In this document: in pieces, positions 26,342 to 37,387 of the stretch
Layout: each line of letters begins with the position of its first letter
How positions within the stretch are numbered: position 1 is the first letter of the stretch
Notes under the pieces: model-generated
What the model was told of the DNA's origin: nothing
What the model saw: only the letters and a program-made list of their open reading frames with translations
Database searches by the model: none
DNA from: an uncultured delta proteobacterium
Lineage (GTDB): Bacteria; Myxococcota_A; UBA9160; JAFDET01
Reading direction: 5' to 3'
NCBI GenBank assembly: GCA_947260035.1
Contig: CAMYOO010000007.1
Coordinates: 1-37,388 of the forward strand
Length of the DNA: 37,388 bases
Program-made: the position numbers and the translations under genes

Positions 26342-27273
26342 AGACCGTCCTTTTCGAGCGGCGCTTCAAGAAGTTCCAGGGCGGCCACCTCAAGGCCTAC
26401 CACTACTTCACCCACGTGCTCGCTTCGCCGAACTGGACCGCGAAGGTCCGCTTCAGCGAGGACTCGGTCTGGGACGAAAGCAATCCCTGGATGGCTCATC
26501 CGGACAATGTCCTGGCGCCCGACGAGTCCTGCGCCCACGACGTGCACTTCCTGGGCGGCCGCGACTGGGAACGGATCCCGGAGAGCCAGCGCGAGAACCC
26601 GCCCGTGCCCCGGATCAACCTGATCCAGCACACCCGGCACGGTTTCCCCGACGACCCGCGCCGGCCCTTCCTGCGCTACCGGGCGGTGCGGATCTGCTGC
26701 AGCGAGGAGGTGGCGGATTCGATCCGGGCCGCCGGCGCCAACGGACCCGTCTTCACCAACCCCTACGGCCTGGATCCGGGCGAGCTTCCCGAGCCGATCC
26801 CCTTCGACGCCAAGCCGCTCGACCTGCTGATCGTGGCCATCAAGGGGCCGCGCTTGGGCCGGCGGCTGCGCTGGCGGCTGTGGCGCCCCCGCCGCCGCAT
26901 CGGGCTCCTGACGCAGCCCATCCTGCGCAGCGACTTCCTCAACCTGGTCAACCGCGCGCGGGTCACGCTCTTCCTGCCCCACGTGGACGAGGGGTTCTAC
27001 ATCCCGGCTCTGGAGGGAATGGGGCTGGACACGATCGTGGTGTGCCCGGACTGCGTGGGCAACCGCTCGTTCTGCATCCCCGAACAGACCTGCCTGCGGC
27101 CGCCCTTCGAGTTCCGCGCCATCCGCAGCGCCGCCGAGGATGCGTTGCGCCTGTCGGCGGCGCAGGCCGAGCCCATGCTGAAGGCCGCCCGCGAGATGTT
27201 CGGGAGCCACACACTGGTGCGCGAACGCGAACGCTTCCTGTCGATCCTGGACGACCTGGACGGAATCTGGTGA
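26338..27273 (+). CDS. GT-B-type glycosyltransferase (GT4-like)
   Basis: A 311-aa protein resembling the C-terminal half of GT-B glycosyltransferases. FNPYGLDP-like text is present as FTNPYGLDPGELP after VRICCSEEVADSI. The donor-binding signature is LPHVDEGFYIPALEGMGLDTIV, the E-G-F-x-x-P-x-L-E pattern, with D217/E218. MKTVLFERRFKKFQGGHLKAYHYF at the start fits an acceptor-side Rossmann strand with a Gly-rich loop. The domain is short for the family (usually 350-400 aa). It starts at ATG 26338 in an ATGA overlap with the sulfatase stop, and its TGA overlaps the next GTG. The acceptor is probably the same glycan as the flanking genes. Confidence 0.75.
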   Translation: MKTVLFERRFKKFQGGHLKAYHYFTHVLASPNWTAKVRFSEDSVWDESNPWMAHPDNVLAPDESCAHDVHFLGGRDWERIPESQRENPPVPRINLIQHTRHGFPDDPRRPFLRYRAVRICCSEEVADSIRAAGANGPVFTNPYGLDPGELPEPIPFDAKPLDLLIVAIKGPRLGRRLRWRLWRPRRRIGLLTQPILRSDFLNLVNRARVTLFLPHVDEGFYIPALEGMGLDTIVVCPDCVGNRSFCIPEQTCLRPPFEFRAIRSAAEDALRLSAAQAEPMLKAAREMFGSHTLVRERERFLSILDDLDGIW

Positions 27274-28973
27274 GCCGCGCGGCGGCAGGGCTCGCGCTGG
27301 TCATCGCAGCGCTGGCTCCCGTGCTGCTCTTCGACCGCTTCGGGTACGACTTCCTCTTCCACCAGGACCGGGCGCTGATGAAGCGACTGGCCTGGGCCGC
27401 GCTGGCGATCCCCCTGCTCAGCCTGCCGCCGGCGCTCCTGTTGGGCTGGCATCGCGGCGCCGCGGACATCGCCGAACGCGTGGCGCGCCTCGGACTCCGC
27501 GCGCCGGCGCGGCGGAGGGCGCTGGCGCTGCTGGCCGTATTCGCGACAGGGGTGCTGGTCTCCTCGGGGGTCCTGCTCCACTTCCCCAACTCGGCGGATG
27601 AGTTCGCCTACCTCTTCCAGGCGGAGACCTACGCGAGCGGACGCCTCTGGATCGACGAGCATCCGGTCCAGGCGTTCGTTCAGTTCATGCACTCGAAGGT
27701 GCTGGACGGCCGCTGGGTGAGCCGCTTCCCACCGGGCTGGCCGGCCTTCCTCGCCCCGTTCCTGGCCCTGGGGCTGCCCGCCTGGCTGGTGAATCCCATG
27801 GTGGCGGCGGCCTGCGTGGCCCTGCTCTACGTCCTGGGGCGGCGCTGCTTCGGCGAACGCGCGGGTCTCCTGGCGGCCGCGCTCTTCGCCCTGTCGCCCT
27901 TCCTGATCCTGAACGCCGGCGCCGAATACAGCCACCTGTTCGCCGCACTGCTCTCGCTGATCTTCGCGCTGGCGGGCACGCGCTACCTGGAGCGACCCTC
28001 GGCGGGCGCGGCCCTGGTGGCGGGCCTGGCCCTGGGCTGGCTGGGCCTGGCGCGCACCATGAACCCGGTGCTCCTGGGCGCACCGTTCGCCGTCGCGCTG
28101 CTGGCGCGGCGCTCGTGGCCTCACCTGCTGCGCGGCTGGCCGCTGGCGCTGGGAGGCGGCGCATTCCTCGCGCTGCTGTTGGCCTACAACGGCGTGCTCA
28201 CCGGGGATCCCACCCTGCCGCCCACGCTGGTGGACGATCCCAAGCAGACCATCGGCTTCGTGGGCGGCCACACGCCGGCGCGGGCCTGGAAGTTCATCCA
28301 GCACCGTCTGCTGCTGCTGCCGCGCTACACGTCCGGGCTCTTCCTCTTCGTCTACGGGCTCGCGCTGGCGCGCGGCGCCCAGCGCCGTGACCTGCGCTGG
28401 TGGGACGCGTACTTCTTGCTCGAGGTGCTGGGCTACTCCCTCTACCACAACAGCTCCCACGACACCTACGGGCCGCGCTACCTGTTCGAAGCCTTCCCGT
28501 TCGCGGCGCTGCGCATCGCGGCGGCGTGCGCGCCGCGCGCCGAGGGCCGGCCCTGGGCGCCGGTCTTCAGCTGGCTCGTGGCCCTGCACCTGGCCACGGC
28601 CGTGACCGGCATCGTCTCCACGGCGTGGCTCCACGGGCGCGTGATTCGCGAGCGACGCGATCCGGTCCGGGCCGTGGAGGAGGCGGGGCTCCGGAACGCG
28701 GTGGTCTTCGTGGCCTCGGACACCAGCCCGACGAGCCGCATGCCCAAGTTCGACCTGGTCCGGAACCCGCCCGACGTGGACGACCAGCCGGTGGTCTGGG
28801 CGCACTTCCGCAAGCAGGAGCTGGAACGAATCGAGGCCTACTACCCGGAGCGGACGTTCTGGGTCTACCAGCGCCCGCCCGACCAGGTGAGGGGACGCCT
28901 GGTCCCCCTGGACGCGTGGCGAGCCTCTCGAGCCGCCGGAGAGGCCGCCGCAGGCGCCGATCCGGGCGTTTGA
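27270..28973 (+). CDS. polytopic GT-C-like glycosyltransferase (GT39/GT83-like)
   Basis: A 567-aa membrane protein with about 10-12 hydrophobic segments. After the third, the periplasmic loop reads FPNSADEFAYLFQAETYASGRLW. D110/E111 match the acidic pair typical of GT-C enzymes such as ArnT and PMT. RFPPGWPAFLAPFLALGLP and SHDTYGPRYLFEAFPF are also typical. The C-terminal ~130 aa are soluble. It should transfer a sugar from a polyprenyl-phosphate donor outside the inner membrane, but neither sugar nor acceptor is known. It starts at GTG 27270 (GTGA overlap). A 33-bp gap with two GGGGAC copies separates it from the next gene, the only spacing over 30 bp in this operon. Confidence 0.8.
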   Translation: MSRAAAGLALVIAALAPVLLFDRFGYDFLFHQDRALMKRLAWAALAIPLLSLPPALLLGWHRGAADIAERVARLGLRAPARRRALALLAVFATGVLVSSGVLLHFPNSADEFAYLFQAETYASGRLWIDEHPVQAFVQFMHSKVLDGRWVSRFPPGWPAFLAPFLALGLPAWLVNPMVAAACVALLYVLGRRCFGERAGLLAAALFALSPFLILNAGAEYSHLFAALLSLIFALAGTRYLERPSAGAALVAGLALGWLGLARTMNPVLLGAPFAVALLARRSWPHLLRGWPLALGGGAFLALLLAYNGVLTGDPTLPPTLVDDPKQTIGFVGGHTPARAWKFIQHRLLLLPRYTSGLFLFVYGLALARGAQRRDLRWWDAYFLLEVLGYSLYHNSSHDTYGPRYLFEAFPFAALRIAAACAPRAEGRPWAPVFSWLVALHLATAVTGIVSTAWLHGRVIRERRDPVRAVEEAGLRNAVVFVASDTSPTSRMPKFDLVRNPPDVDDQPVVWAHFRKQELERIEAYYPERTFWVYQRPPDQVRGRLVPLDAWRASRAAGEAAAGADPGV

Positions 28974-31270: not shown

Positions 31271-31298
31271 CCCCGGGGTGGCCTATCATGCTTGCACC

Positions 31299-32135
31299 GT
31301 GACTGCCCAGCAGAGCCAGCCGCGCGCCCGTCCCATCGTGGTCATCGGGATGCACCGGTCGGGGACGTCCCTGGTCGCCCGCATCCTGGCCGCGGCGGGA
31401 GTCCAGATGGGGGCGGACCGCAACCTCCACGACGAGTCCGACTTCTTCCGCGAGCTCAACAAAGAGATCTTCCGCGCAGCTCACGCAGACTGGGACTGGC
31501 CGCTGGCCACCATCCCGGCCCTGGAGGACAAGACCCTCTGCGACAACCTGGCCGCGCACCTGACCGAGCGCTGCGCCTCGAAGAACGCCCGGGCCTACCT
31601 GGGGCGACGGTTCGGCAAGGCGGACCTGGCCGCCCAGACGGACCGCTGGGGTTGGAAGGACCCCCGCAACACCTGCACGCTGCCGCTCTGGCTGCGGGTC
31701 TTTCCCGAAGCCCGGGTGGTCAACGTGTACCGCGACGGCGTGGACGTGGCCGCCAGCCTGGTCACGCGGGAGCGCAAGCGCGCGGGGCGATTGGAGAACG
31801 CGATCCGTTCCTCGCGCTGCCTGGACCCGGACCGGGCGTTCGGCTTGTGGACGGAGTACGTGGAGCGGAGCCTCGACGTAACCGCCGAGCTCCCGCCCGC
31901 CCGGGTTCGCGACATTCGCTACGAGCGGCTGATGGCGAAGCCCTATGAGGCGGTGCGCGAGCTGCTGGCGTTCCTCGAGCTGGGCCGGGACGAAGCCGAG
32001 GTGGCTGCGCTGATGCGCATGGTCGACCCGGAACGCGGCCAGGCCGCGCGCAAGGATCCCGAGTGGGAGACGCTGCGACGCGCCAAGACCTTCCACCCGC
32101 TCATGCGGCGCCTCGACTACGGCGACGGCCCGTGA
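31299..32135 (+). CDS. sulfotransferase family protein (third of three)
   Basis: A 278-aa sulfotransferase of the Sulfotransfer_3-like group, distinct from the two NDST-like ones upstream. The phosphosulfate loop is VVIGMHRSGTSLVARIL. The HDESDFFRELN segment, WGWKDPRNTCTLPLW and NVYRDGVDVAASLV are family hallmarks, and the last is the 3'-phosphate site. Two GTG starts are possible, at 31278 and 31299. I prefer 31299, because the longer form adds an unlikely AYHACTV and neither has a good Shine-Dalgarno. A TATCAT at 31284-31289 could be a -10 box for a nearly leaderless internal transcript. Its TGA overlaps the following fusion gene by 4 bp. Confidence 0.88.
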   Translation: MTAQQSQPRARPIVVIGMHRSGTSLVARILAAAGVQMGADRNLHDESDFFRELNKEIFRAAHADWDWPLATIPALEDKTLCDNLAAHLTERCASKNARAYLGRRFGKADLAAQTDRWGWKDPRNTCTLPLWLRVFPEARVVNVYRDGVDVAASLVTRERKRAGRLENAIRSSRCLDPDRAFGLWTEYVERSLDVTAELPPARVRDIRYERLMAKPYEAVRELLAFLELGRDEAEVAALMRMVDPERGQAARKDPEWETLRRAKTFHPLMRRLDYGDGP

Positions 32136-34312
32136 CCCCGCGCGTCGACGTGATCCTGCCCCTCCACGGCGGCGAGCGCTGGGTGGAGGAGGCGGTGCAG
32201 AGCGTGCTGGCGCAGAGCTTCGACGACTGGCAGCTCTGGGCGGTGGACGATGCCTCGCCCGACGCCAGCGCCGACCGCGTGGAGGCGCTCGCCGAGCTGC
32301 GTCCCGACCGCATCGAGGTCCTGCGCCTGGAGCGGCCGCTGCGGGCGGCCGGCGCGCGCATGCACGCGATCGGCCGGGGCCGCGGCGAGCTGCTCGCCTT
32401 CCTGGACCAGGACGACCGCTGGCGCCCGGAGAAGCTGGAGCGACAGGTGGCGCGCTTCGACGCCGACGCGGAGCTGGGCGCCGTGCACGGTGACGCCGCC
32501 ATCATCGACGAAGGCGGTGCCGTGGTGCCCGGCGCCGCAGACCGCGAGAACGCCCTACGCGCGCGGCTCGCCTGGGGGACCGGGGCGGCGCTGTCGGCCA
32601 CGCTCTTCGAGAAGAACGCGATCCGGCTGGGCTCGGCGATGCTGCGGCGCAGCGCCTTCGAGGCCGCGGGAGGCTTCGACACCTCGCTCTTCGGCGGCGA
32701 GGACTGGGAGTTCTGGGTGCGCTTCGCCGAGCGCTTCTCGATCGCCCACCTGCCCCGGGTGCTGCTGGAGCGTCGCGTACACGGTGAGAACGTCTCGCGG
32801 GTGCATGCCGCGGCGCGCGCGGAAGGCAAGCTGCGCGCCGTGGAGAAGGCGGTGCGCGCGCAACCCCAGCTGGGACCGCTGGCCGCCCGGCGGCGGCGCG
32901 CAATCCGCAGCGCCGCCGGGATTCCCGAACCGCCTCAGGCCACGGCGACCCGTCTTTTCGCAAGCCTGGACCAGGCCGGCGTCCGCTACTGCCATTGGAA
33001 GAGCAACGAACACGTGGCCGCGGCGCTGGCCGGCCGCACCGACTTCGATCTGCTGGTGGACCCCACGGACCGCGAGCCCTTCGAGGCCGTGCTGGCGACG
33101 CTGGACTTCAAGGAAGTGGAGGCGCCGCCGGAGAAGCGCTTTCCCGGCATGCGTGACCGGCTGGGCTTCGACCCCGAGAGCGGCGGACTGCTGCACCTGC
33201 ATGTTCACGAGCAGCTGATCCTCGGCGCCGCCGGCGTCAAGAACCACCGGATTCCCATCGAAGCGCTGCTCCTGGACGATGGACGCCGGATCGACGGCGT
33301 GCGGGCGCCGGCCCCGGAGCTGGAGCTTCTGCTCCTGGCGATCCGCGCGCCGCTCAAGGTCTCGCTGAAGCGCATCCTGCAGCGCTGGCGCAAGGACGGA
33401 ACCAAGACGCTCCAGAGCGCCCTGGTCCGGGAGATGGCCTTCCTGCTCCCCGATGTGGATGAGGCCCACTTCGGCGAAGCCGTGGCCAAGACGGGCCTGG
33501 CCCTGGACGCCGACACGATCCTGACCTTCGTGCGGAGCGCACGCGACGCGACGCTGACGACACCGGAGCTCCACCGCTTCCGGCGGGCCGTGCTGCAGGC
33601 GCTGCGCCCCTACCGGCGGGACTCCGCGGCGGGCGCCGCGGCGCGCGCCGTGAGAGCGCGGGCGCTTTCCTCCCGTGCGGGTCTCGTCCTGTTCGGCCCG
33701 CGCGGGCGGCGACTGCCGGGCGAGGGGCGGCTGATCGCCCTGGTGGGCGCCGACGGCTCGGGCAAGTCCACCCTGGCAGCGGAGCTGCGCACCTGGCTGG
33801 GCTGGAAGCTCGACGTGCGCGACGCCTACTTCGGGATTCCCAAGAGCTCGCGCGGCTACCGGCTGCTTCAGCGCATGCGCGGCGGGCGCCGCGGCGGCTG
33901 GATGGACGCAGAGCGCTGGCTCTTCGCCGCGCGCCACCGGCTGAGCCAGTACCGGCGGGCGCGGCGCCACACCCGCCGCGGCGGCATCGTGATCGCCGAC
34001 CGCTACCCGCTTCCCGAGCTCTGGGCGCCCCCCGAGCCCATGGATGGGCCGCGCCTGTCCGGCCAGGGCATGGCCGGGCGCGAACGCAACCTCTACGCGC
34101 GCATCGGCCCGCCGGACCGAGCCTTCGTCCTGCGCACCGACCTGGAGCTGCTGCGGCGCCGCGAGCCCCGGGTGGAGCCCGGCATTCACGCGCGCAAGGC
34201 CCAGGTGGTGAACGCCCTCGGCGACTCGGAGGTGCGCAGCGTGGTGGACGGAAACCGGCCCTACGAGGAAGTGCTGCTCGACCTCAAGCGCCGGATCTGG
34301 GCGCTGCTCTGA
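32132..34312 (+). CDS. GT2 glycosyltransferase - nucleotidyltransferase-like - P-loop kinase fusion
   Basis: A 726-aa three-part protein. Residues 1-230 are a GT2 domain, with VDVILPLHGGERW, WAVDDASPD (D39, D40), LAFLDQDDRW (92-95) and GGEDWEFWVRFAE. Residues about 275-480 look like a nucleotidyltransferase-fold domain, opening with RYCHWKSNEHV and TDFDLLVD (D304, D306, D310). Residues about 530-726 are a thymidylate-kinase-like P-loop domain: LIALVGADGSGKSTLA (K545), then IVIADRYPLPELW and a LID-like ERNLYARIGPPDRAFVLRTD. YCHWKSN proteins with kinase domains occur in polysaccharide loci, but their reaction is unknown. It starts at GTG 32132 (GTGA overlap). Plausibly it glycosylates and phosphorylates the same glycan; that is inference. 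Its last 29 bp overlap the convergent kinase gene. Confidence 0.85.
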   Translation: MTPRVDVILPLHGGERWVEEAVQSVLAQSFDDWQLWAVDDASPDASADRVEALAELRPDRIEVLRLERPLRAAGARMHAIGRGRGELLAFLDQDDRWRPEKLERQVARFDADAELGAVHGDAAIIDEGGAVVPGAADRENALRARLAWGTGAALSATLFEKNAIRLGSAMLRRSAFEAAGGFDTSLFGGEDWEFWVRFAERFSIAHLPRVLLERRVHGENVSRVHAAARAEGKLRAVEKAVRAQPQLGPLAARRRRAIRSAAGIPEPPQATATRLFASLDQAGVRYCHWKSNEHVAAALAGRTDFDLLVDPTDREPFEAVLATLDFKEVEAPPEKRFPGMRDRLGFDPESGGLLHLHVHEQLILGAAGVKNHRIPIEALLLDDGRRIDGVRAPAPELELLLLAIRAPLKVSLKRILQRWRKDGTKTLQSALVREMAFLLPDVDEAHFGEAVAKTGLALDADTILTFVRSARDATLTTPELHRFRRAVLQALRPYRRDSAAGAAARAVRARALSSRAGLVLFGPRGRRLPGEGRLIALVGADGSGKSTLAAELRTWLGWKLDVRDAYFGIPKSSRGYRLLQRMRGGRRGGWMDAERWLFAARHRLSQYRRARRHTRRGGIVIADRYPLPELWAPPEPMDGPRLSGQGMAGRERNLYARIGPPDRAFVLRTDLELLRRREPRVEPGIHARKAQVVNALGDSEVRSVVDGNRPYEEVLLDLKRRIWALL

Positions 34313-35099
34313 CCGCTCCGGCGAGATCCCGGGCCAGCTCTTCGCAGACCGGAGCCGCGCGCAGGGCATCGGCCGACGCGTAGCGGTTGGCGACCACAAA
34401 GACCGGAATCCTCCGCCGGCGCGCCTCGTCGGCGATCGCCTGGGCCACCCGCTCGCCACGCTGGACGAAGACCCGGACCTGCGCGGGATCGCGCCCGGCC
34501 AGGCGCTCGGGCAGGCCTCGCGCGGCCAGGCGCGCGCAGCATTCGTCCAGCTCGGCCTGTACGTGGACCAGCACGTCGGGGAATACCCAGACGCGCAGGA
34601 AGCGCTGCAGAGCCGGCTCGTCCAGCGCCGACTCCGGATCGGCGAACAGGTTCAGCGCGCGATGCGCGATGCCCTCCTCCCACAGGAAGAGGTCCATGCG
34701 CCGCGCCTGGGAGCGCAACATCAGCCAGGTCAGGATGCTGCGCTCGACCCAGCGCTCCAGGGTCTCGGCGGTCGCGGTGTCACGCTCGCGAATCGCCGCC
34801 AGCGCCTCGCGATAGCGACGCCAACCCGCGCGCTGGAAGGTGCGAAAGCGCCACAGGAGAAAGGGCGTCTCCACGTCCTTGAAGTACTCCAGGCGTTGGC
34901 CCGCGACCTCCCGCTCGCGCACCTGGGCGCCGGCCAGCTTGCCGACCCAGCCGTGGCGCATGTAGAGATCGCGGATCGCATCCCGGGGCGGCACGCGCAG
35001 CCGGCGCTCGCGCAGCAGCTCCGTGCAGCGCTCGGCCAGGGTGCTCTTCCCGCTTCCGGGCGCTCCCGTGAACTCGACGATACGCCCGCGCCGCGGCAT
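34284..35099 (-). CDS. P-loop kinase-like protein, uncharacterised
   Basis: A 271-aa protein opening with a Walker A motif, VEFTGAPGSGKSTLAERC (residues 8-25). The middle contains LFLWEEGIAHRALNLFAD, which could play the Walker B/substrate role of nucleoside- or sugar-kinase-like P-loop proteins. PDVLVHVQAELDECCARLAARGLPERLAGR resembles the LID region of adenylate/thymidylate-type kinases. The substrate is unknown. ATG 35099 is chosen because it places the P-loop directly at the N-terminus; the longer ORF to 35474 is antisense to the next gene. Its 3' end overlaps the fusion gene tail-to-tail by 29 bp. Having two unrelated-looking P-loop kinases side by side suggests a shared phosphorylation role, by inference. 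Confidence 0.78.
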   Translation of the reverse strand: MPRRGRIVEFTGAPGSGKSTLAERCTELLRERRLRVPPRDAIRDLYMRHGWVGKLAGAQVREREVAGQRLEYFKDVETPFLLWRFRTFQRAGWRRYREALAAIRERDTATAETLERWVERSILTWLMLRSQARRMDLFLWEEGIAHRALNLFADPESALDEPALQRFLRVWVFPDVLVHVQAELDECCARLAARGLPERLAGRDPAQVRVFVQRGERVAQAIADEARRRRIPVFVVANRYASADALRAAPVCEELARDLAGAVRAAPRSGA

Positions 35100-35178: not shown

Positions 35179-35880
35179 ATGCCTGTCCGAACCGCCGTAT
35201 TTCCGAGAGTGCGTCGCTTGCGCGCCGCCTTGGCCGTACTCCTGCTCGCGCCGTTCCTTGCGGTCGCCGCCCCGGTACGCGCCCAGCCCGACGCCGTGCC
35301 GCTGGAGGACGACCTCCAGATCGTGGTGCTGCCCCAACGCCTGCTGGCCATCGGCTCGCGCGGCGGCGGGCAGCGCGAGTTGGCGCTGGAGCTGGGCGAG
35401 CGGGTGTTGTGGCAGGGGGTGCGGGGCCGCGTGGGCATGGTGCTCACCGACCGGCGGGTCCTGGCCGTGACCACCGAGAGCGGCTCCTGGCAGACCGAAC
35501 GCTACCGGCGCACCGAGACGGTGCCGGAACCTCCGCTGCTGGGCGGCCGCGTGGGGATCCTGGTGCTGCGGACCCGCTTCCTCGGCTTCGACGGCGGCAG
35601 CGGCAACCTGGTAGAGAGCAGCATCGGCCCCTCGGAGAAGGTGATCGACTGGGGAGTGAGCCAGAACGTGGCCGTCGCCGTGACCAACCGCCGCGTGCTC
35701 GGCCTCTCACCGTTCCGGGGCGGCTTCTTCGAGAGATCGGTCACCCCCGCAGAGCGCTACCAGGGGCTCACCACCGTCGCCAACTCCGCCACCGTAACCA
35801 CGTCCCGGCGACTGCTGATCTTCCGGGCCCCGAGCGGGACCTGGGAGGAGCGAAACCTGGACCTGCGCGACCGGCGCTAG
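35179..35880 (+). CDS. secreted protein with about five propeller-like repeats
   Basis: A 233-aa exported protein. The signal peptide has a hydrophobic core LRAALAVLLLAPFLAVAA and probable cleavage after APVRA (residue 35). The mature chain repeats every ~40 aa: VVLPQRLLAIGS, MVLTDRRVLAVTT, LVLRTRFLGFDG, VAVTNRRVLGLSP, TVTTSRRLLIFRA. Each is a strand with T-x-R-R-[VL]-L, followed by E and W/F-containing text. That pattern fits a small β-propeller or similar solenoid with about five units. I do not recognise the family, and no catalytic motif is visible. ATG 35179. It is 14 bp upstream of the next membrane-protein gene and divergent from the P-loop kinase. A binding or sensing role is possible but unproven. 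Confidence 0.75.
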   Translation: MPVRTAVFPRVRRLRAALAVLLLAPFLAVAAPVRAQPDAVPLEDDLQIVVLPQRLLAIGSRGGGQRELALELGERVLWQGVRGRVGMVLTDRRVLAVTTESGSWQTERYRRTETVPEPPLLGGRVGILVLRTRFLGFDGGSGNLVESSIGPSEKVIDWGVSQNVAVAVTNRRVLGLSPFRGGFFERSVTPAERYQGLTTVANSATVTTSRRLLIFRAPSGTWEERNLDLRDRR

Positions 35881-35894
35881 GAGCCGGACCCGAG

Positions 35895-37349
35895 ATGGAG
35901 ACACGCCGCGCACGGATCGCCGCAGCGGCGCTCCTGGTCGCCAGCGCGATCCCGATCTGGAGCGTGCGCTTCTTCCCCAGCCAGGACGGCCCCTCCCACC
36001 TGTACAACGCCCGCCTGCTGACGGCGCTGCTCGATCCCGCGAACGCGCGCCTGCGCGAGTTCTTCGAGTTCAATCCCGGCCTGCACCCGAACCTGCTGGC
36101 CCACGGCCTGCTGGCGGGCCTTCAGGCCGTGGTGTCACCGCTGCCGGCGGAGAAGATCCTGCTCACGGCGCTGGTCGTGCTGCTGCCGCTCTCGCTGCTG
36201 TGTCTGCTCCGAGCGGTCGAGCGCGGGCGCGACGTGTATGCGCTGGCGGCGCTTCCGTTCGCCTACCACCACCTGCTGCACCTGGGCTTCTACTCGTTCT
36301 CGCTGGGGCTCTCGCTCTGCTTCTTCACCCTGGCGTTCTTCTGGCCGCGCCGAACGCGCGTCACGCTGGGCGGCGTGCTGGGCGTGAACGCCCTGCTGCT
36401 GCTGACCTACCTGGCGCACTTCGGGCCCTTCGCCATGAGCCTGCTGGGCATGGCCATCGGCCTGGCCGCCGTTCCGCTGGCCGCGGGGGAAGGCTCGCGC
36501 GGCGAGCGCTTGCGGCGCGCCGTCCTGGGCGGCCTGCCCATGGTACCCGCGGGCCTGCTGGGGCTGGCGTACCTGATGGCGGGAAGCGATGGCTTCACCA
36601 AGTACGTCAGCGCCGAGAAGCTGCGCACGATCTTCTTCGAGCGCATGCTGCTGACCTCCTACACCACCTGGCAGCAGATGCTGGCGCCGTGGCTGCTGGG
36701 CTGCCTGGCGGTGGCGCTGATCTTCACCGCGCTCGACCGGGCGCGACGCCCGGTCGGCTTTCTGCCCCGAGACGCCTTCCTGGTCTTTTCGGCACTGCTG
36801 GCAGCGTTCTTCTTCACACTGCCGCGTTGGATGAACGACGGCGGCTTCGTCAATGACCGCGTGTTCCTGCTCTTCTTCCTGCTGGCGTGGGTGGGGATGG
36901 CTCCCCCGCCCCGGCGGCTGGCTGTGGCACTGGGAGTCGTGCTGCTGGCCTGCGCGGGCGCCCACCTGGGCCGGCTCTCCTGGGAGTACGCGCGCCTGCA
37001 GCCGGAGCTGCGCGCCGTCACGGCCGCCGTCGAGCAGATCGAGCCCCACTCCACCGTGGCCTACCGGCGGCTCGCCCGGCAGTCCGAGGCCTTCGAGCGC
37101 TACCCGCGCTACGTGGACCCGTTCGCCCATGTGGATTCCTATTATGGGCTGGGCGAGGACGTGGTCCTCTTCGACAACTACGAGACCCGCTTCGACTACT
37201 TCCCACTGCGCGCGACGGCCGCGGAGCGCGTAGACCCCGACTACGTCGTCGTCTGGCCCCTGCCCCCCGACGAGCCCCTCCCCGACGACCTGCGCGACCA
37301 CACCATCCTGCACCACGCCGACGGCCTCGCCCTCCTCCGCCGAAACTAA
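35895..37349 (+). CDS. polytopic membrane protein, GT-C-like
   Basis: A 484-aa integral membrane protein with about 10 hydrophobic segments and a soluble C-terminal tail of ~110 aa (from ARLQPELRAVTAAVEQ). The first loop contains FFPSQDGPSHLYNARLL. Uncharacterised bacterial GT-C-like proteins often have an Asp (here QDG) at the equivalent place. AYHHLLHLGFYSFSLGLSLCFFTLAFFWP and LTYLAHFGPFAMSLLGMAIGL are membrane spans. ATG 35895, 14 bp after the repeat-protein gene, so the two are likely one transcript. The donor and acceptor are unknown, and it could be a non-enzymatic membrane protein. The ORF track's 646-aa form is extended through the upstream gene. Confidence 0.65.
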   Translation: METRRARIAAAALLVASAIPIWSVRFFPSQDGPSHLYNARLLTALLDPANARLREFFEFNPGLHPNLLAHGLLAGLQAVVSPLPAEKILLTALVVLLPLSLLCLLRAVERGRDVYALAALPFAYHHLLHLGFYSFSLGLSLCFFTLAFFWPRRTRVTLGGVLGVNALLLLTYLAHFGPFAMSLLGMAIGLAAVPLAAGEGSRGERLRRAVLGGLPMVPAGLLGLAYLMAGSDGFTKYVSAEKLRTIFFERMLLTSYTTWQQMLAPWLLGCLAVALIFTALDRARRPVGFLPRDAFLVFSALLAAFFFTLPRWMNDGGFVNDRVFLLFFLLAWVGMAPPPRRLAVALGVVLLACAGAHLGRLSWEYARLQPELRAVTAAVEQIEPHSTVAYRRLARQSEAFERYPRYVDPFAHVDSYYGLGEDVVLFDNYETRFDYFPLRATAAERVDPDYVVVWPLPPDEPLPDDLRDHTILHHADGLALLRRN

Positions 37350-37356
37350 CCGCGCC

Positions 37357-37387
37357 GGCAACTAAAGGGACTGTCCCTTTAGTTGCC
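37357..37387. repeat. perfect 15-bp-arm palindrome, REP-like or terminator
   Basis: GGCAACTAAAGGGAC, a single T, then the exact reverse complement ends one base before the window edge. It starts 7 bp after the stop codon of the membrane-protein gene, so it could form a terminator hairpin. The AAAGGGAC core shares GGGAC with the repeat at 9390-9470, and both sit at gene 3' ends. The window ends here, so its full extent is unknown. Confidence 0.8.

Follow-up and report, generated by a model that had tools for sequence, protein, structure and literature searches.

Among the beta-propellers, the five-bladed glycosidases of families GH43, GH32 and GH62 and the PQQ-type dehydrogenases are common representatives, BamB is an eight-bladed protein with a lipobox, and WD40 blades carry a His/Asp/Ser-Thr hydrogen-bond network. 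The best-known five-bladed lectin propeller is tachylectin-2, whose blades are 47 aa long (PMC4735018) and contain, in the D-A loop, a Gly-Trp motif that has been tied to sugar binding; bacterial secreted propellers resembling it exist (PMC8023676). Tachylectin-2 is also the five-fold example used in propeller design work, where it has been called a geometric misfit of the propeller series, and how far this is general for five-bladed propellers is unclear (PMC8458387). Among natural propellers, the literature that we found offers few five-bladed, all-repeat examples whose blades are short.

We describe here a family of proteins, one member of which is encoded at positions 35179 to 35880 (forward strand) of a 37,388-nucleotide contig from an uncultured delta proteobacterium, the whole of which we call the window. 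The fold is a known one, but the number of blades is less usual and the blades bear a signature particular to the family. At about 195 residues, with five diverged blades and a polar staple, it would be a second natural test case for five-fold propellers; its practical value otherwise lies in annotating a single-copy hypothetical protein of a largely uncultured group.

An uncatalogued, exported, single-copy protein

The open reading frame begins with an ATG at 35179 and ends with a stop codon at 35878-35880, and its translation gives a product of 233 aa. That this is a real gene is supported by twelve aligned relatives from independent MAGs (48-85% identical) and by dN/dS values below 1, of about 0.32 against the closest relative, L003 (0.076/0.24), and about 0.12 against L004 (0.129/1.09), both denoting purifying selection. 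An in-frame stop was reported in some genomes, and in those translated it is the ordinary terminal stop.

No match above threshold was obtained for the protein in Pfam, NCBIfam, PHROG or PDB sequences; the PDB sequence matches to TraI and NADH oxidase are at chance level (E of 0.03-0.4) and were rejected. A sequence-only reading of this DNA had called the product unrecognized, and so it is in the libraries searched, no model of which reaches its cutoff and none of which yields a confident known family. The family is thus uncatalogued there; the fold itself is known.

The same reading had taken the product to be a small secreted protein, which its N terminus bears out. Residues 1-35 (35179..35283, forward strand) form a signal peptide, as judged from a hydrophobic N-terminal segment, an A-x-A-like site and a low-confidence AlphaFold2 helix at residues 10-28, with type I cleavage likely after VRA/Q (AVAAPVRA/Q). 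A hydrophobic N-terminal segment is present in 33 of the 34 family members and an A-x-A-like site in 32. The lipobox, which marks the lipoprotein signal of BamB, is present in none of the 34, and a Cys follows the signal peptide in a single member, as a single residue. No second domain was found.

A scan of GTDB genomes with six peptide patterns, a design by which distant relatives in other phyla may be missed, returned 13 loci, in MAGs or assemblies labeled Myxococcota, Myxococcales, Myxococcaceae or Deltaproteobacteria. When 379 genomes sampled from the window's phylum were searched with a 34-member profile, the gene was detected in 54, of which 49 belong to the window's own order and the other 5 to its class, and each of the 54 carries one copy; no paralogue was found in the window's own genome. 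Relatives are still recognizable at about 33% identity, and this, together with the single copy and the restriction to one class, indicates a real, vertically kept gene. A plasmid origin was rejected after a search of plasmids for the gene gave no match.

Five repeats of 39 residues

The product had been proposed to contain five internal repeats of about 40 aa, and self-alignment of both the single sequence and the family profile places these far above shuffled controls. The single sequence scores 86 against itself, compared with 29 +/- 5 (maximum, 54) for shuffles, and the profile of 34 relatives scores 71, compared with 9.8 +/- 1.6 (maximum, 14) for column shuffles; the best profile offsets (118, 39 and 79) correspond to a period of 39 residues. 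Pairwise hhalign comparisons between the five unit profiles give probabilities of 85-98%, with the exception of units 1 and 5 (26%).

The five units, of about 39 aa each, are all on the forward strand and were delimited by DSSP, hhalign between units and conservation, to which profile self-alignment was added for the first. Blade 1 comprises residues 37-75 (35287..35403); its innermost strand is irregular, its T-x-x-R is replaced, and Glu74 lies in the loop after the blade. Blade 2 (residues 76-113; 35404..35517) contains T90-D-R-R93, W104 and E113, and blade 3 (residues 114-153; 35518..35637) contains R133, the loop GFDGGSGN at residues 136-143 and E153. Blade 4 (residues 154-192; 35638..35754) contains T169-N-R-R172, GLSPFxGGFF at residues 175-184 and E192, and blade 5 (residues 193-231; 35755..35871) contains T208-S-R-R211 and W222 and is without a terminal Glu, the chain stopping there.

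Each unit had further been said to carry a strand ending in T-x-R-R-[VL]-L. Three canonical copies of this motif are indeed present, at residues 90, 169 and 208; unit 3 has a variant, L-R-T-R-F-L, the first position of which is Thr in 88% of relatives, and unit 1 is degenerate. In 20,000 shuffles of the protein's residues, three matches to T-x-R-R-hydrophobic-hydrophobic never occurred, and two occurred in ten shuffles. The remark that the protein is short for a classical propeller holds for its total length, but not for its blades, whose 39 aa are ordinary; the short total reflects a count of only five blades.

Predicted fold

AlphaFold2, given a 13-member alignment, returned a model of the protein with a pLDDT of 85, reaching about 90-98 over residues 71-220, at a pTM of 0.75, and the mature part of a 55% identical relative, L010, was modeled with the same strand pattern at a pLDDT of 91 and a pTM of 0.86. 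Both models are all-beta, with 18-19 strands in five groups, or about four per unit, and neither has a helix in the mature domain. Taking at least four sequential, four-stranded antiparallel units as the mark of a propeller, the predicted structure has five units of about four strands each, with the inner strand of blade 1 irregular. In Foldseek searches of PDB and viral models, the named matches are almost all beta-propellers (E of about 1e-6 to 1e-4; probability, 1.00), among them WD40, Kelch, RCC1, Nup159, the designed Tako8/SAKe6 and BamB (7ttc_B). The suggestion of a compact propeller is therefore upheld at the level of predicted structure, by two models and their propeller matches, and we consider a compact five-bladed beta-propeller to be very likely the fold.

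Superposition on solved propellers gives low TM-scores (0.22-0.44, at an rmsd of 7-14 A), and no five-bladed propeller is among the best 50 Foldseek matches listed. We attribute the low scores to the comparison of a five-bladed ring with rings of six to eight blades: with blades 72 rather than 45-60 degrees apart, about two of the five could be superposed on a 6-8-bladed ring, giving a TM-score of about 0.4. An open arc of ordinary curvature would be expected to score much higher, so that the low values support a five-fold ring, though they are no proof that it closes, and a pTM of 0.86 combined with a TM-score of about 0.4 to 6-8-bladed propellers is compatible with a tighter ring. We infer that the blades probably close into a five-fold ring.

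A Glu and Thr-x-x-Arg signature between blades

Conservation across the family follows the repeat. The turn residues of blades 1 to 5 are 51, 90, 130, 169 and 208; Thr is conserved at this position (85-100%) and Arg at +3 (82-100%) in blades 2-5 only, the Arg position of blade 1 being mostly Glu or Asp, and Glu is conserved at +23 (94-100%) after blades 1-4 only. The Glu and Thr/Arg positions thereby match one-to-one at the four inter-blade junctions. Each of the four Glu stands just before a blade that bears Thr/Arg, from which we infer a loop-to-turn staple between blades, whereby each loop Glu would pair with the Thr/Arg in the T-x-x-R turn of the blade that follows; the proposed pairs are E74-T90/R93, E113-R133, E153-T169/R172 and E192-T208/R211. 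The T-x-R-R motif is most likely structural in role.

Such a staple would replace the polar network of WD40 blades. WD40 proteins are among the Foldseek matches, and in both families a polar signature of each blade could link the preceding loop with the blade's B-C turn. The residues differ, however, being Gly-His plus Asp and Trp-Asp in WD40 and Glu plus Thr-x-x-Arg here, and the Gly-His and Trp-Asp signature is absent from all five units; WD40 propellers have seven blades, whereas those of the present family have five and are exported.

The family resembles BamB and the PQQ_2 family (PF13360) in being exported and in having blades of about 40 aa, and residues 39-194 of relative L010, covering four blades, have a sub-threshold PQQ_2 match (E of 2.8e-5; 24.3 versus 27.6 bits). 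It differs from BamB in its five blades and lack of a lipobox, and PF13360 does not match the propeller gene in its own genome, though it does match other PQQ proteins there. DUF6476 (PF20082) is matched by three members of the family, with a best E of 2.3e-5, but it is a 91-position model, and the match inspected, that of L009, falls below its cutoff. In L009 (7974-8633), the last blade (family residues 186-214) resembles DUF6476 positions 57-86. The likeness may reflect a single-blade motif that the two families share or reached by convergence, and DUF6476 may itself hold a single propeller-like blade motif.

Function and alternative readings

The protein probably acts as a passive binding scaffold, a role that would be BamB- or TolB-like. 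As to the reading as a whole, that of an exported five-bladed propeller serving as a soluble periplasmic or secreted, nonenzymatic binding scaffold, we give it about an even chance. The candidate contact surface would consist of two glycine-rich C-D loops, in blade 3 (GFDGGSGN) and in blade 4 (GLSPFxGGFF), which, from their conservation, are likely to form it; beyond the core clade, the conservation of both loops is weaker. More tentatively, the family could be a lineage of its own among propellers, minimal, five-bladed and monomeric, with the Glu/Thr-x-x-Arg staple between blades as its defining mark, and confined to one class as a conserved single-copy envelope factor.

A secreted five-bladed lectin of the tachylectin-2 kind, every blade of which would bind a sugar at a site of its own, would account for several of the same features, since tachylectin-2 is likewise secreted, single-domain and five-bladed, and bacterial secreted propellers of this type are known. 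We consider this improbable, and nothing specific favors the lectin-like fold of the sequence-only reading: PF14517 matches none of the 34 members in Pfam searches at E values up to 1, the blades are 39 rather than 47 aa long, and the D-A loops end in Glu and have no Gly-Trp motif. Moreover, where conservation extends over four or five blades, the residues look structural, and the loops conserved best, in blades 3 and 4, differ from blade to blade, a pattern that hardly points to equivalent sugar sites in all five.

The sequence-only reading had the protein serving the adjacent membrane protein, and one could extend this to a partner or accessory of that protein or of a local glycan/sulfotransferase cluster. 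The neighbor, a multi-pass GT-C-like protein of 484 aa without a Pfam match (35895..37349, forward strand), is on the same strand at a 14-bp gap after the propeller stop codon, glycosyltransferase and sulfotransferase genes lie nearby, and synteny on the kinase side is kept within the same genus and family. The arrangement is not retained, however: when homologues were checked for a place beside GT-C-like genes, only the closest relative, L003, was found to share it. Among 284 genomes of the phylum, 35 have the propeller gene, 23 have a GT-C-like gene and 1, the window's own, has both, against about 2.8 expected by chance. No neighbor or operon recurs consistently over 40 loci, where genes were called with a simple GC-position caller that missed some. 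Synteny and co-occurrence thus lead us to reject the link to the membrane protein, and a partnership with it or with the cluster is very unlikely; the propeller gene stands alone. The divergent neighbor on the other side, a P-loop kinase-like protein (AAA_18/AAA_33, below cutoff; 34284..35099, reverse strand), is syntenic with the propeller only within genus and family and is not considered part of any system with it.

Equally hard to sustain is an enzymatic reading, as a five-bladed glycosidase of the GH43/GH32/GH62 kind or a PQQ-type dehydrogenase. Its support consists of how common such propellers are and of the one weak PQQ_2 match, and against it, the 39-aa blades leave no long inserts, the protein has no family match, and the most conserved acidic residues, the Glu after blades 1-4, are repeat-periodic, lie in inter-blade loops and look structural. 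Least likely of all is a non-propeller fold of tandem PH-like (bPH) or other all-beta units, with the T-x-R-R strand as a bPH signature. We reject the bPH reading of this strand: four of the 34 members show weak bPH_3 (PF14470) matches, the best with an E of 0.068, but the score of 13.6 bits is below the cutoff of 23, 39-aa repeats are below PH-domain length, and the AlphaFold2 mature domains are helix-free and match propellers in Foldseek.

Other features of the window

The GT-C-like protein at 35895-37349 has no Pfam match at E values up to 0.01, and its relatives, some with as little as about 26% identity, are scattered through the phylum, in 23 of the 284 genomes, constituting another uncatalogued family. 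The open reading frame at 32063-34312 combines a GT2 glycosyltransferase domain with a P-loop kinase-like domain at the C terminus, and the kinase-like gene at 34284-35099, on the reverse strand, is convergent to it and overlaps its end; this fusion gene is found beside the propeller gene only in members of the same genus and family. A Sulfotransfer_3 sulfotransferase (E of 7.2e-27) is encoded at 31278-32135, beside glycosyltransferase genes, and a PMT_2 protein is encoded at 26880-28970, which together look like a surface glycan cluster. At the contig end, positions 37357-37387 form a perfect 15-nt inverted repeat (GGCAACTAAAGGGAC/GTCCCTTTAGTTGCC), the 19-nt core of which has 16 genomic copies, compared with 0 for the reversed control; judged from these copies, it is a REP-like palindrome at a contig break.
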